Shown here in pieces: positions 11,955 to 16,503 of a DNA stretch of 16,503 nt. The position numbers were made by a program, and so were the translations under genes. Under the pieces are notes generated by a model, which saw only the letters and a program-made list of their open reading frames with translations, searched no databases and had not been told where the DNA came from. Numbering within the stretch: the first letter of the stretch is position 1; each line of letters begins with the position of its first letter. The DNA comes from Candidatus Heimdallarchaeota archaeon (GTDB lineage: Archaea; Asgardarchaeota; Heimdallarchaeia; JABLTI01). Location of the stretch: the NCBI GenBank assembly GCA_019894765.1, contig JAGXNT010000067.1, forward strand, positions 1 through 16,503, given 5' to 3'.

Positions 11955-13544
11955 CTACTTTCGTTTCTTATATACAATGAGAGCGATGACAGGTATGACT
12001 GCACTGAGCATTACGGCTATGAAGACTAAAAATCCAGTAACAGTAAGAGGTCGGGTAGTTGGTATAGATGTGTCAACAAATTTTGTAACAAAAGCATCAC
12101 TCGAACCACCTAAAGTAGTATCGTAAGCATTCTCAGTGGGAAAATCATTTGACGAGGTCCTACCGGTGACAAAACAACTACCAGCTTCAGTAACAGCAAG
12201 GTCAAACCCACGATCACTCCCTTCACTTCCACCAAGATAGGTGCTCCAGAGGAGGAACCCTTCAGAAGAGAATTTAGTAACAAAAGCATCACCATTACCA
12301 CCGTAGGTGCTGTTATAAGCATTCAGAGTGGGAAAATCGCTGGATTCTGTAAAACCTGTCACATAGCTGTTACCATCACCTGTAACAGCAATATCATGCC
12401 CAATATCCATATAATTTCCGCCAAGATAGGTGCTCCATAAAAGGTTACCATCAGCTGAGAATTTTCCTACGAAAGCATCACCTTCAAGACTATATGTACT
12501 ATTATAGGCATTTTGGGTGGGGAAATCACTTGATGTTGTCTGTCCCGTTACATAACAGCTGTCATCACCTGCAACAGTAATACTCAAAGCTACGTCCCAT
12601 GTAGCTCCTCCGAAGTAGGTGCTCCAGAGGAGGAACCCTTCAGAAGAGAATTTAGTAACAAAAGCATCACCATTACCACCGTAGGTGCTGTTATAAGCAT
12701 TCAGAGTGGGAAAATCGCTGGATTCGGTAGAGCCTGTTACATAGCAGCTGCCATCGTTTGCAACAGCAATACTGTACCCCCCATCCAGAGCATTCCCTCC
12801 GAGGTAGGAACTCCAAAGGAGGGTGCCATTAGTGGAGAACTTGGCAACAAAAGCATCCCTATAACCACCATCAGGAGTTGGATCATATGCGTACAGGGTA
12901 GGGAAATCGCTTGATCTTGTATTACCTGTTACATAGCAGCTACCATCACCTGCAACAGCTATGCTATACCCCTCATCCCAACCACTTCCACCAAAATAGG
13001 AACTCCAAAGTAGCTGACCAATTGAAGAGAATTTGGCAAGAAAAATATCACCATTACCACCGTAGGTGCTGTTATAAGCATTCAGAGTGGGAAAATCGCT
13101 GGATTCTGTAAAACCTGTCACATAGCTGTTACCATCACCTGTAACAGCAATATCATTGCCAATATCCAAGTCACTCCCTCCGAAAAAGGTGCTCTGAAGA
13201 AGCGAGCCACTGCCAGAAAGCTTAACAACATAAGCGTCTCTGCTACTGCTTATTGTGCTGTTAAAAGCTAACTGGGTAGGAAAATCACTTGAACCAGTTT
13301 GACCAGTAAGATAGCAACTGCCATCTTCAGTAACAGCAATACCACGCCCTTGATCCAAAGCACTACCTCCAAGGTATGTACTAAAATCTAGTTTGGGATA
13401 GGTTGCAGGTACAGCTTCAGCAGAAGCTAGTAGTATAGTATGTTCAGTAAAAGGAAGCACTTGCTGAGGTATTGATAGAAATACCACACTTATGAGGAGG
13501 ACAACGCCCAAACGATTGATCGCTACTCGTAAGATTTTTCCCAA
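11955..13544 (-). CDS. SBBP-repeat seven-bladed beta-propeller surface protein
   Basis: This 529-residue protein has a signal peptide (about 12-33, LGVVLLISVVFLSI), seven SBBP repeats (Pfam 'beta-propeller repeat' family), a short PTTRP linker and a C-terminal membrane helix (about 504-525) ending in KKRK. Each repeat of about 60 residues runs W-S-T-Y-x-G-G, D-x-x-x-x-I-A-V, DGSCYVTG, SSDFPT, NAYNSTYGG, GDAFVTKFS. Seven repeats would close a complete propeller standing outside the cell. The function is presumably adhesion or binding. The TTG start is well supported by AAGGAGAT 5 bases upstream. Some blades are almost identical at DNA level (see repeat entries), showing recent internal duplication or gene conversion. 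Confidence 0.88.
   Translation of the reverse strand: MGKILRVAINRLGVVLLISVVFLSIPQQVLPFTEHTILLASAEAVPATYPKLDFSTYLGGSALDQGRGIAVTEDGSCYLTGQTGSSDFPTQLAFNSTISSSRDAYVVKLSGSGSLLQSTFFGGSDLDIGNDIAVTGDGNSYVTGFTESSDFPTLNAYNSTYGGNGDIFLAKFSSIGQLLWSSYFGGSGWDEGYSIAVAGDGSCYVTGNTRSSDFPTLYAYDPTPDGGYRDAFVAKFSTNGTLLWSSYLGGNALDGGYSIAVANDGSCYVTGSTESSDFPTLNAYNSTYGGNGDAFVTKFSSEGFLLWSTYFGGATWDVALSITVAGDDSCYVTGQTTSSDFPTQNAYNSTYSLEGDAFVGKFSADGNLLWSTYLGGNYMDIGHDIAVTGDGNSYVTGFTESSDFPTLNAYNSTYGGNGDAFVTKFSSEGFLLWSTYLGGSEGSDRGFDLAVTEAGSCFVTGRTSSNDFPTENAYDTTLGGSSDAFVTKFVDTSIPTTRPLTVTGFLVFIAVMLSAVIPVIALIVYKKRK
12238..12347. repeat. 110-bp perfect direct repeat, copy 1 of pair A (partner 12616-12725)
   Basis: The two 110-bp stretches are identical base for base at an offset of 378 bp. 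Both encode the end of one SBBP blade and the start of the next (WSTY at one end, ESSDFPTLNAYNSTYGGNGD in the middle). They belong to repeats 6 and 4 of the protein. Confidence 0.85.
12288..12397. repeat. 110-bp perfect direct repeat, copy 1 of pair B (partner 13047-13156)
   Basis: Identical base for base to 13047-13156 at an offset of 759 bp, about twice that of pair A. It overlaps pair A by 60 bases, so one blade (repeat 6) is a mosaic sharing one half with repeat 4 and the other half with repeat 2. Confidence 0.85.
12616..12725. repeat. 110-bp perfect direct repeat, copy 2 of pair A
   Basis: Identical to 12238-12347; see that entry. The first differences are at 12615 on one side and 12726 on the other. 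Confidence 0.85.
13047..13156. repeat. 110-bp perfect direct repeat, copy 2 of pair B
   Basis: Identical to 12288-12397; it lies in SBBP repeat 2. Divergence begins at 13157 (T against G at 12398). Confidence 0.85.
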
Positions 13545-13600
13545 AATAGATCTCCTTATGAAATAGTCATCTTGATTTCTTAAAAGAATTACTCAAAGTA

Positions 13601-13610
13601 AATTTAAATT
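13601..13610 (-). promoter_or_regulatory. TATA-like element of the SBBP gene
   Basis: AATTTAAATT, a palindromic TATA-like box, lies 57-66 bases before the TTG start. That allows a leader of about 30 bases that includes the Shine-Dalgarno site. Confidence 0.4.
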
Positions 13611-13630
13611 ATCTCTTTTACGATAACTAA

Positions 13631-14377
13631 TTACATTCGCAATTGCTCAATTTTACACACCCTAGGATATAGACAAAAATTACAATTGGTCTTGTTTAAT
13701 GAGAAATCTTCCTTACTAATTTCTTCTATAAGAGATGATATTTTCTCATCAATATGAAGTAGCTTCTCACTTGTTATTTTCTGTATATCATACTTACCAA
13801 GATTGTAATAATAGCAACCCATTTCAGTGATTTCAGGTGATTCGATATTATTAAACAAATTATACTCAAAAAGCAAGTTGCTATAGAATAACAACGTCTC
13901 CTCATCAGTATCGCTTGGATGAGGTTTGTAATCAATCACTCGTAAACCTTGATCTTCTGAACAAAACTCTATACAATCAATTTTCCCCCGTTGCCTGTCT
14001 GTCATTAGCTTTAGTTCCCTAGCATAAGGTAACCATAGAACTTTATCTTGCAATTGTTCGTATTTCTCTCTTTGTTTTAACCAAAACAAGCGTTTCTTAG
14101 GATTATTCTCGAGAGTAACTGGAATTTTATTACTCACAATAGAATGATAATACAGCTCGTAAAAATTCTTGAAAAAGATGTGTAATTCAATCCCTTCTAA
14201 AATGTGGTCTGGATAACCTCGTAATCGGTAATTTTCTATACTGTATTCTTGTGATTGAAACACTGATTGATAAGGGATCGGATTCAAAATTCGGTGAATA
14301 CGGAACTTCATTGGGCATTCTTTATAGTAAAAATATTCCTGTAAACTAAGATTCAACTCATAATCTAAAATTACCAC
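13631..14377 (-). CDS. Cas4/RecB-like PD-(D/E)XK nuclease with Fe-S-type cysteines
   Basis: The 248-residue product has the core of a RecB/Cas4-type nuclease: His66 in EGIELHIFF (the motif His), GKID with Asp134, and Asp149-Tyr-Lys151 in VIDYKPH, matching the D...(D/E)-x-K catalytic set. One Cys near the start (C21 in KECPMKF) and three at the end (C232-x2-C235-x5-C241 in CNFCLYPRVC) are placed as the 4Fe-4S ligands of Cas4, AddB and Dna2-type nucleases. The usual downstream Q-x3-Y motif is altered to YSNLLFEY. Cas4 relatives cut single-stranded ends and trim DNA. The GTG start at 14377 is supported by AAAGGTGAT, which overlaps the TGA of the upstream gene. That implies translational coupling. 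No cas1 or CRISPR array is visible, so it is a solo Cas4-like enzyme in this operon. Confidence 0.82.
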   Translation of the reverse strand: MVILDYELNLSLQEYFYYKECPMKFRIHRILNPIPYQSVFQSQEYSIENYRLRGYPDHILEGIELHIFFKNFYELYYHSIVSNKIPVTLENNPKKRLFWLKQREKYEQLQDKVLWLPYARELKLMTDRQRGKIDCIEFCSEDQGLRVIDYKPHPSDTDEETLLFYSNLLFEYNLFNNIESPEITEMGCYYYNLGKYDIQKITSEKLLHIDEKISSLIEEISKEDFSLNKTNCNFCLYPRVCKIEQLRM

Positions 14378-14382
14378 CTAAA

Positions 14383-15096
14383 TCACCTTTCCATCTTTAA
14401 TCCTCTAAATAACAAAGGATGCTCTACGAGAACTTTTGTTAATCTAGTAGTTGGGTCTTGCGAATCTTCTTCATAAATTCCCGAATAAGCACTAATTAAT
14501 TCCTCAATCAAAATCGAAAGTTCATCATCTGTTGCTTGAGCAATCCTATTGCTTTTCTGAGCAAAATTTCTCTCAACATTCTCAAAATTATATGACTTTC
14601 TTATACAATTCCTATATCTCAGAAGTGCTTCCTCACAAAAGTTTTCGTTGAGTTCATTTGCTCTATAGAATTTGGAATAGTATGTAAGCAGTCTTTGTAA
14701 TTCCAAAGAACAATTAGTATTTGGTGAGAAATTAAGTCTACAGATTTTCATCTTATCAGTATTTCTCCCAAAGATGATGTAATCGCTTTTCTTGAGGAAA
14801 TCCAGATATTTGTTTGTTTGATCCCAACCCCAATAAGAGGAATCAACAACTTCGTGAATTTCTTTTTCCTTTAACAAACCAGTAGTTGTGAAGTCTTTAA
14901 TCCATGAAGACAAAAATGCGTGAGTTCGGATGTAACCAGTATTACAAAAAATATCTACAAGTTTTTTTAGTGTCTTAATCATTTCCTGAGTTAAATCACC
15001 CTCGTCTGTTATACGAGGAATAACTAGCTTGGGTATTTTTCTGATACATTGAACCATTTTGGAGTCGAATTGTTTTGTTAGTTCTTCATCTTTCAT
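14383..15096 (-). CDS. Unidentified protein in the Cas4-like operon, possible winged-helix region
   Basis: The product has 237 residues from the ATG at 15096, or 240 from a TTG at 15105 that lies only one base after GGTG and looks less likely. It is mostly helical and charged. The stretch from TQEMIKTLKKLVDIF through HEVVDSSYWGWDQTNKYLDF and LKKSDYIIFGRNTDKMKICR has the helix-turn-helix plus beta-hairpin rhythm of a winged helix, but this is only a visual impression. The second half (LLTYYSKFYRANELNENFCE and ISAYSGIYEEDSQDP) is helical. I recognise no family. Its stop codon TGA overlaps the Shine-Dalgarno of the nuclease gene, so the two are made together. It probably partners the nuclease and the larger upstream protein. 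Confidence 0.75.
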   Translation of the reverse strand: MKDEELTKQFDSKMVQCIRKIPKLVIPRITDEGDLTQEMIKTLKKLVDIFCNTGYIRTHAFLSSWIKDFTTTGLLKEKEIHEVVDSSYWGWDQTNKYLDFLKKSDYIIFGRNTDKMKICRLNFSPNTNCSLELQRLLTYYSKFYRANELNENFCEEALLRYRNCIRKSYNFENVERNFAQKSNRIAQATDDELSILIEELISAYSGIYEEDSQDPTTRLTKVLVEHPLLFRGLKMER

Positions 15097-15114
15097 GTCT
15101 ACCAAACACCAAAT

Positions 15115-16503
15115 TTAGTTAATTTCAATAATCGTTAACGGTTGAAAAGAAAATTCGTTATCCAAGAAATGCTTTATGAAATCATGAAGAATTCTCAATT
15201 CCTCTCGAGAGAAATGACTACTATCTCTTGTTTGCTGTAACATTTTCCATGGAGCCAACTTTTCTCGGGAATTATTCCCTGACAGCAATATTTGTGATGA
15301 GCTAAGACCAAGTTCAGTGAAAAGTTTCTGGTATTGTTGAACTTGATCTTTATAGATTTGTAGAATGGATGAAGTAGAACCACATTCCAAACTTACTTTC
15401 GTTTGCAAAACACTTTGAGCAATACGTCGAAGAATGGTTTCTCCTTCCGATTCAACCTCAATGATGAACAATTCATCAAACCTTTTTCCACGTTGCTTTA
15501 TGAAATGACTGGGAAGCAGTACTCCTTCACGAATAGTCTGGATCAGCTTCACTAAACCAACAAATTTAGCTTGCTCGGATTTGTCGAACATCAAACCTTG
15601 CGGTTGATTCTGATGACACCAACCACGAAGACCGAACCAAGGAAAACTGATTCGATTGTAAGCAAGCTCTTTAAGAATGGAAGTAACAATTTGATTTACA
15701 CCATTTATAGCTGAGTGAAAATCTGAACGAGCGCGATACAGACCAAAAGGAAGGAAATGTTCACCGCGAACCATTCGAGCATTTGCTCTCGAGGGAGCAA
15801 AGAATCCGTGTTCTCGAGCTTCCACTTTGAAGGGTTCATACATAAGACTCCCACAACCCCCTTCAATTTGCTGCCAATGACGATAATCAAGTTTAGTAAT
15901 CTGTTTATGCTCCAAAACCTTCTCATTTATTCGCTTTTTCGCTTCCCGGTATATTTCTTTAGTACCTGAAGAAGCTTCTAATCCAGCAGTTTCTACACTT
16001 GTTTCTCGAGAAACTAAATTACTCTGAAGACAAAAAGGATTCAAGTAACCACTGAAAATCATTAATTCATTCCCACCAATTTCCAAGTCGGTGGGAGTCG
16101 CACTATCAGGACCTGCTCTTGGAGGATAAATAGTTGATTTACCATACAGCTTTCGGATTACACCTTCTTGATCCTCATATTCAGGATGTAAGGCTTTCAG
16201 TAAAGCAAAGTAATCCGGCCAAGAATTAGTTGAAATATAATCTAATTCTTTCAGGGGAAAAGCCGCAAGGTCGCAAACATCGGAATCCAGAGTGGAATCA
16301 TACCCGAGATAAATAATTTCATGACGAAGATTGAGGAAAAAGTTAAGATCTCTATGTATGGAAATACCAAAGTGCTTTGCAGATTTCCGAGCAGGGAGGG
16401 ATTTGTTGGTTAATTTCTTGTAATCTTTCTGTAAGAAATCATAACGAGCATCCCAATATCTCACTTCAATACGAGCAAGATGCTCATTATACGCAAGGAT
16501 CAT
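15115..16503 (-). CDS. Large unidentified protein, first visible gene of the Cas4-like operon (possibly incomplete at its start)
   Basis: At least 462 residues are visible. The first codon seen, at the window edge (16503), is ATG, but no upstream sequence is available to judge it, so the protein may be longer. It is soluble, with no signal peptide or membrane helix. Notable stretches are FFLNLRHEIIYLG (55-67), which looks like the 'LRN.I.H' region of HEPN-type (DUF3644-like) helices with the catalytic pattern altered, and an aromatic-rich central part: DYRHWQQIEGGCGSLMYEPF, GEHFLPFGLYRARSDFH and NRISFPWFGLRGWCHQNQP. A helical C-terminal region ends in FSFQPLTIIEIN. I cannot assign a family. 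The next gene starts about 18 bp after its stop. Its size and lead position suggest the main sensor or effector of the module, which is inference only. Confidence 0.7.
   Translation of the reverse strand: MILAYNEHLARIEVRYWDARYDFLQKDYKKLTNKSLPARKSAKHFGISIHRDLNFFLNLRHEIIYLGYDSTLDSDVCDLAAFPLKELDYISTNSWPDYFALLKALHPEYEDQEGVIRKLYGKSTIYPPRAGPDSATPTDLEIGGNELMIFSGYLNPFCLQSNLVSRETSVETAGLEASSGTKEIYREAKKRINEKVLEHKQITKLDYRHWQQIEGGCGSLMYEPFKVEAREHGFFAPSRANARMVRGEHFLPFGLYRARSDFHSAINGVNQIVTSILKELAYNRISFPWFGLRGWCHQNQPQGLMFDKSEQAKFVGLVKLIQTIREGVLLPSHFIKQRGKRFDELFIIEVESEGETILRRIAQSVLQTKVSLECGSTSSILQIYKDQVQQYQKLFTELGLSSSQILLSGNNSREKLAPWKMLQQTRDSSHFSREELRILHDFIKHFLDNEFSFQPLTIIEIN

Follow-up and report, generated by a model that had tools for sequence, protein, structure and literature searches.

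Casposons are described in published accounts as transposons of Cas1-solo group 2; those accounts define Cas1 transposons by PolB, give a target-site duplication (TSD) of 15 bp for the casposase, and report that some casposons carry Cas4-like nucleases or a Cas1 fused to zinc and helix-turn-helix (HTH) domains (PMC4046053, PMC9939771). Mobile elements linked to tRNA genes have also been reported from Asgard archaea, as aloposons, with tandem genes for proteins of 3,000–6,000 amino acids (aa), and as HeimM2 of Ca. Heimdallarchaeum, which spans 8 kb and has a gene for an enzyme compared to the homing endonucleases of rRNA introns (PMC8813620). The main text of that report has no occurrence of Cas1, Cas4, TnpB or LAGLIDADG, a term search of PMC12669027 gave no matches, and the titles and opening lines of abstracts surveyed, mostly of open papers, describe no Cas1-like elements of the present kind in Asgard archaea. 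Here we analyze a 16,503-nucleotide stretch of a Candidatus Heimdallarchaeota genome (the window), which ends in a trio of genes, c0, c2 and c1, encoding a Cas1-like protein, a small partner and a Cas4-like nuclease. The trio is likely the right-hand part of an integrative element of Heimdallarchaeota that is built on Cas1, resembles casposons and does without PolB, because insertions matched by empty sites are seen at three loci of relatives and at one of a related lineage, with a 9-bp TSD in one case.

The trio and its Cas1-like protein

The open reading frame (ORF) list and the sequence show three collinear minus-strand genes (Table 1) separated by short gaps: c0 and c2 lie 9 nt apart if c2 starts at a TTG (240 aa) or 18 if it starts at an ATG (237 aa), c2 and c1 lie 5 nt apart, and the GGTGA preceding the c1 start overlaps the TGA stop of c2. 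A sequence-only reading of the window had proposed just such an operon, with the ribosome site of the nuclease overlapping the preceding stop, and was right on both counts. It had also regarded the 462-residue partner as a whole protein of no known family, with no cas1 in view, and here it was mistaken. This ORF begins exactly at the window edge because the gene continues outside: the 665-aa protein P0001 contains all 462 residues at 100% identity, so that the first 203 residues of c0 lie beyond base 16503. Full-length c0 has a winged helix at its N terminus, two four-cysteine clusters and, at its C terminus, a Cas1 fold; in the structure model, residues ~332–665 match Cas1/casposase (Foldseek, VIA). 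The window ORF is the C-terminal two thirds of this protein, and the nuclease cannot be called solo, since its operon partner is a Cas1 homologue; full-length c0 and its fold led us to reject a solo Cas4 accompanied by two unrecognised proteins.

Alignment of the c0 family (A4, 17 sequences) with 32 Asgard Cas1 proteins placed the Cas1 catalytic set at E/D417, H500, D510 and E513, all kept throughout A4. Cas1-solo group 1 is ruled out for c0, as the catalytic set of that group is incomplete and c0 keeps all four positions. Judged by its modelled fold and aligned catalytic positions, c0 is a very divergent member of the Cas1 superfamily, and its two cysteine clusters are probable zinc clusters. 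The close relatives of the window trio are referred to below as lineage I and more distant Cas1-like members as lineages II to IV. Seven members of the family are recorded with a named source, all of them annotated as 'hypothetical protein', and a search of a 5.8-billion protein set (best 7,997 candidates by shared words) returned 22 proteins at E<=0.01, every one a lineage I relative of 454–676 aa.

Table 1 Features of the window (positions counted from its first base)
Feature	Positions	Strand	Remarks
c0, Cas1-like protein, residues 204–665 of 665	15115..16503	-	5' end cut by window edge
c0 catalytic position E417	15862-15864	-	A4 alignment
c0 catalytic position H500	15613-15615	-	A4 alignment
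c0 catalytic position D510	15583-15585	-	A4 alignment
c0 catalytic position E513	15574-15576	-	A4 alignment
c2, ~237-aa protein, probable DNA-binding partner	14383..15105	-	Mostly helical, central winged-helix-like part
c1, Cas4-like PD-(D/E)XK nuclease	13631..14377	-	Pfam PDDEXK_1, PADLOC Cas4, residues conserved in A6
Probable right border of mobile core	13545..13640	.	By analogy with L118 and L005 borders; window compared with L165

The nuclease c1 matches Pfam PDDEXK_1 (E=1.5e-11) and, weakly, Cas4 family models (PADLOC Cas4, E 4.4e-4). Residues C21, H66, D134, K151 and C232 are invariant in alignment A6 of its family (18 sequences including the window copy), C235 and C241 are nearly so (absent in L030), and position 149 is D or E; D134, D149, K151 and the four cysteines are thus as the earlier reading had listed them. 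As far as its sequence tells, c1 has the RecB-like motif and the four cysteines of the Cas4 family, and by analogy C21, C232, C235 and C241 would be Fe-S ligands. The third gene, c2, keeps its slot downstream of c0 in relatives; its structure model is of low confidence (mean predicted local distance difference test score 61, best part residues 60–121) and its winged-helix matches are weak, none at E<=1e-3, which suggests that it is probably a winged-helix DNA binder. Structure prediction and profiles therefore gave Cas1 for one of the two proteins previously unrecognised and no confident match for the other.

The trio recurs in an order too constant for chance, and the condition under which the earlier reading would have been refuted, no joint conservation elsewhere, does not hold. 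A scan of the genome_contigs set found 11 loci, all from Heimdallarchaeota or 'Asgard group', with the order c0-c2-c1 on one strand in ten; the eleventh (L008) ends inside c0. The trio forms the right half of a cassette made up of a LAGLIDADG-HTH gene (c3), a small gene (c4), c0, c2 and c1, and all five families occur in this order in 9 of the 11 loci (some genes broken or contig-cut), the other two being contig-cut. An A1 search of the seven genomes behind these loci added distant members with ORFs of ~500–720 and 1,000–1,400 aa, whose loci are of the same kind; most of those on sufficiently long contigs include c3. In lineage IV a giant protein, whose likeness to Cas1 shows in profile comparison only (best A4 match of the L041 protein, E 1.1e-13), is paired with a helicase and an SbcD-like phosphoesterase. 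Across 227 genomes of the phylum (five best candidates per genome), A4 matches above 300 bits are confined to the same seven genomes. Searches of viral_contigs with A4 and A3 gave 2 and 26 pattern matches, none confirmed as a relative, and a virus module was rejected on this ground. Elsewhere, G054, an Asgard genome outside the seven, holds a 993-aa Cas1-like ORF near a RAMP pair (L156 263-6457; c3 is absent from the fetched piece), and G082, G177 and G178 of the same phylum have Pfam Cas1 matches within ORFs of 1,325–2,772 aa.

Insertions, empty sites and borders

The clearest insertion is L004 5975-17371, which is absent from G005, where the flanks are joined, as well as from G006 and G003. 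Both junctions carry TTAATTCGAT and the empty G005 site has TAATTCGAT once, giving a TSD of 9 bp, or 10 bp counted within L004 alone. The left border of this element lies 13 nt beyond the end of TnpB, and cargo genes, one with tetratricopeptide repeats, lie to the right of the Cas4-like gene. A second insertion, L003 ~5624-19671, is absent from G004 and G005; G006 apparently has the same element at the same site, on two contigs (L172 and L011), with a core 94.6–94.8% identical; to the right of the Cas4-like gene (6.0 and 4.1 kb), shared matches do not exceed 39 bp before the final ~500 bp are reached. The third, the RAMP-type element L118 (~6752-17241), is absent from G004, while G007 retains a piece of its gene c5. 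The lineage IV element L041, which has an empty site in G002, ends in an 18-bp perfect inverted repeat (chance expectation ~1e-5); a search for terminal inverted repeats (TIRs) in lineages I–III, including L004, L003 and L118, found nothing convincing. The mapped inserts measure ~10–14 kb. A search for an empty site of L145 (lineage IV) found none in G005, which shares the left part of the element and lacks ~7 kb from its interior.

These sites bear directly on whether the trio might instead be a resident DNA-repair or nuclease operon that does not move and whose flanks differ through age. The window's own insertion is not demonstrable and no viral relative was confirmed, as such an operon would have it; nevertheless the idea is already contradicted for the four relatives with empty sites, several copies of the element occur per genome, and we regard it as very improbable.

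Several copies lie at tRNA genes. The core of L118 and of L005 ends within ~25 bp of the c1 stop, in L005 within the final ~11 nt of the c1 ORF, at the point where the anticodon-loop sequence of a tRNA-Asp gene starts; this tRNA-Asp gene is intact in G004, and the left side of L005 is off its contig. In L001 and L002 the element stands behind an intact tRNA-Asp. At a tRNA-Leu site shared by two genomes (L030 4859-4946 and L038 4438-4525), c3 begins with the same ~527 bp but is followed by different Cas1-like lineages. L030 repeats the final 42 nt of this tRNA-Leu at 12925-12966 (37/42), a repeat that was clear in this one case, so that a tRNA 3'-end repeat was dismissed as a general attachment site. 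An Rfam scan of eight sources found two tRNAs only. By analogy with L118 and L005, the interval listed in Table 1 probably holds the right border of the mobile core, a prediction as regards the window itself; DNA similarity to G005 ends at 13547, 84 bp from the end of the c1 ORF. The window copy is presumably such an insertion too.

The hub gene c3 and its exchangeable partners

The cassette is headed by c3, a two-motif LAGLIDADG protein with an HTH, whose LAGLIDADG acidic residues are invariant (18 sequences) and which is present in all four lineages; c4 is small and weakly winged-HTH-like. Partners were counted around 39 c3 copies (380 aa or more) in 40 fetched regions, and the counts hold for that sample only, because the regions were picked for c3 or Cas1-like matches and at most six candidates were scored per genome. 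Of the 39, 18 have TnpB no more than 1.5 kb upstream and 10 have a RAMP-type (Cas7-like) gene (c7, c5 or both) no more than 3.5 kb away; the two never occur together (0/39), and 11 copies have neither, counting L134, whose RAMP pair at ~4.7 kb falls outside the distance limit. Downstream, 26 copies have a Cas1-like gene at a distance of up to 9 kb (lineages I–III, 18; lineage IV, 8), and among the 13 copies without one, 9 kb of sequence exists only at L130, L142 and L149. A Cas4-like gene accompanies 16 of the 18 lineage I–III copies, and a helicase 6 of the 8 lineage IV copies. Gene c7 matches the RAMP superfamily in L001 (E=2e-7) and no Pfam family in L131, c5 is weakly RAMP-like, and the L004 TnpB carries a TNB domain (2.5e-22); in three loci (L117, L126 and L133) a NERD-nuclease-domain gene adjoins c3 instead.

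The gap between c3 and c4 has features of its own. A conserved element like TGTACAAGAGGGGT occurs there in all nine aligned loci (L001-L008 and L010; e.g., L003 8918-9221 and L004 8926-9221), where three short repeats precede a TATA-like box, with spacings of ~59 and 32 bp kept in six loci. This three-repeat motif is reached by at most 2 of 60 shuffles in six of the nine loci, and by 5, 4 and 22 of 60 in L005, L002 and L010; the repeats are possibly operators or end-binding sites. Four extra ORFs separate c3 from c4 at L010 6937-8792 (= L118 10747-12602), and other ORFs occupy a 1.6-kb gap at L009 6678-8273.

The constancy of c3 and its acidic residues, together with the copies at tRNA genes and with the end of TnpB only 13 and 18 nt in from the left border in the pair of elements where that border is exact, could indicate that the element spreads by homing through its LAGLIDADG protein and/or TnpB, while c0 and c1 do no more than resect or repair the break. 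Homing by double-strand-break repair, however, leaves no target duplication, whereas L004 has one; the Cas1 catalytic positions are kept throughout A4, and 11 of the 39 c3 copies have no TnpB or RAMP within the limits used. We therefore consider homing of this kind unlikely.

The casposon-like reading has to be set against a number of observations that weigh against it. The window c0 protein reaches no Cas1 family model, and the lineage I profile alone compares with Cas1 at prob 57 (E 1.1e-4). The TSD is resolved in L004 only and not in L003, L118 or L041, L004 has no clear TIR, and ~290 bp of host DNA seen in G002 is missing at the L041 site. Cargo stands between the Cas4-like gene and the right border in L004 and L003, c3 is exchangeable separately from the Cas1 module, and movement could also be driven by the nucleases c3 and TnpB. 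Lastly, the left border and empty site of the window copy are out of view, G005 being rearranged there.

Comparison with casposons, CRISPR-Cas and TnpB elements

Like casposons, the Asgard element has a stand-alone Cas1 with four catalytic positions as its only recognised integrase, a TSD, and several copies at tRNA genes. It differs in that no PolB or HNH was seen, the TSD is 9–10 bp as against the 15 bp given for the casposase, one mapped element alone has a TIR, the hub is a LAGLIDADG-HTH gene with TnpB or RAMP neighbours, and the Cas1 has diverged beyond the reach of most family models; finds with a name all come from Heimdall-, Gerdarchaeota or 'Asgard group'. For PolB, no match was found in L004 among TnpB, c3, c4, c0 and the 260-aa and 221-aa genes, with c1 and c2 covered through the window copies and the 645-aa cargo gene through its L003 relative (an FG-GAP propeller). 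Aloposons and HeimM2 share with it the nature of an Asgard mobile element linked to tRNA genes, and the enzyme described for HeimM2 may be a counterpart of c3; identity with aloposons was rejected, the largest ORF of the L004 element being 668 aa.

The CRISPR adaptation module Cas4-Cas1-Cas2 likewise has Cas1 and Cas4 homologues in one operon, and RAMP (class 1) or TnpB, the ancestor of class 2 effectors, occurs in modules linked to the Asgard trio. Unlike that module, the loci scanned have no array or Cas2, c0 has extra winged-helix and cysteine-cluster domains, and the genes are carried as an insertion with empty sites. A spaced-repeat scan of 177 records (L177-L180 stood outside it) was positive in 11, each of them among the 33 records retrieved for a genuine Cas1, while no element record was positive; a further array check on seven regions found none. 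Cas2 (PF09827) exceeds the cut-off only beside the four genuine Cas1 loci of the seven genomes, with two sub-threshold matches inside ~780-aa ORFs elsewhere. G001, G004, G005 and G007 carry elements with no genuine Cas1 or Cas2 over the cut-off, an absence that is provisional because these are metagenome-assembled genomes of untold completeness. An ordinary CRISPR locus was rejected for the loci of relatives, which have neither array nor Cas2 (the upstream side of the window is out of view).

A less ordinary relation to CRISPR deserves separate consideration: an array-less immune or DNA-capture system in which Cas1-Cas4 captures DNA, the RAMP genes or TnpB use RNA from it against invaders, and mobility is that of a defence island. 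The modular logic of Cas1 and Cas4 homologues with an exchangeable RAMP-type or TnpB partner, never both, is in keeping with it, as is the unlike DNA to the right of the Cas4-like gene in sister species whose cores, at apparently one site, are ~95% identical; L038 also seems, by eye, to adjoin restriction-modification genes. Against this stand the lack of any CRISPR-like array in the scanned element records, Cas2 found only beside genuine Cas1, and element loci in which no spacer-like DNA was seen, and we think such a system rather improbable. The sequence-only reading had suggested an undescribed defence or DNA-processing system: the genes are indeed conserved, apparently undescribed and probably concerned with DNA processing, but the setting in relatives is a mobile element with empty sites rather than a demonstrated defence system.

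Elements of the IS200/IS605 and IS607 type with TnpB offer a third comparison, in that the TnpB gene ends at the element border. In the model for TnpB of those elements the guide is copied from the flank, and the position of TnpB at the border means that the same could occur here. The Asgard element differs in having no TnpA or serine recombinase among the scanned genes, a Cas1-like integrase, and mapped inserts of the size given above.

For the casposon-like element, we infer that c0 performs integration from its fold, its active site, the TSD and the lack of any other recognised integrase among the scanned L004 genes; c1, c2, c3, c4, TnpB and the RAMP genes would have helper roles. In such a scheme the Cas4-like nuclease would trim or prepare DNA ends, and c0, through its winged helix and two probable zinc clusters, would bind the element ends and the target and attach the 3' ends at staggered positions in the target, so that a short duplication results. 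The c2 protein may act as a DNA-binding accessory, and c3, c4, TnpB or the RAMP-type genes at the left border might cut or recognise an unoccupied site, favouring spread or retention.

More speculatively, and in our view doubtfully, the element could be a mobile, array-less counterpart of CRISPR-Cas in Asgard archaea, its Cas1-Cas4 module coupled through the LAGLIDADG-HTH hub to an exchangeable RNA-guided partner, with a guide from the element's own flank directing integration or homing and with cargo exchanged next to the Cas4-like gene. CRISPR adaptation is proposed to stem from Cas1 transposons, and if this reading were true the element would be a surviving relative of the stage when such transposons met class 1 and class 2 effectors. 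The union of integrase and RNA-guided effector becomes a testable question on living elements, because a deep Cas1 branch that is mobile in Asgard archaea is paired with a Cas4-like nuclease and linked through a common hub gene to RAMP or TnpB genes.

Beside the trio, on its c1 side, the window encodes at 11955-13544 (minus strand) a repeat-rich protein, propeller-like by eye, whose relative in G005 is inverted.
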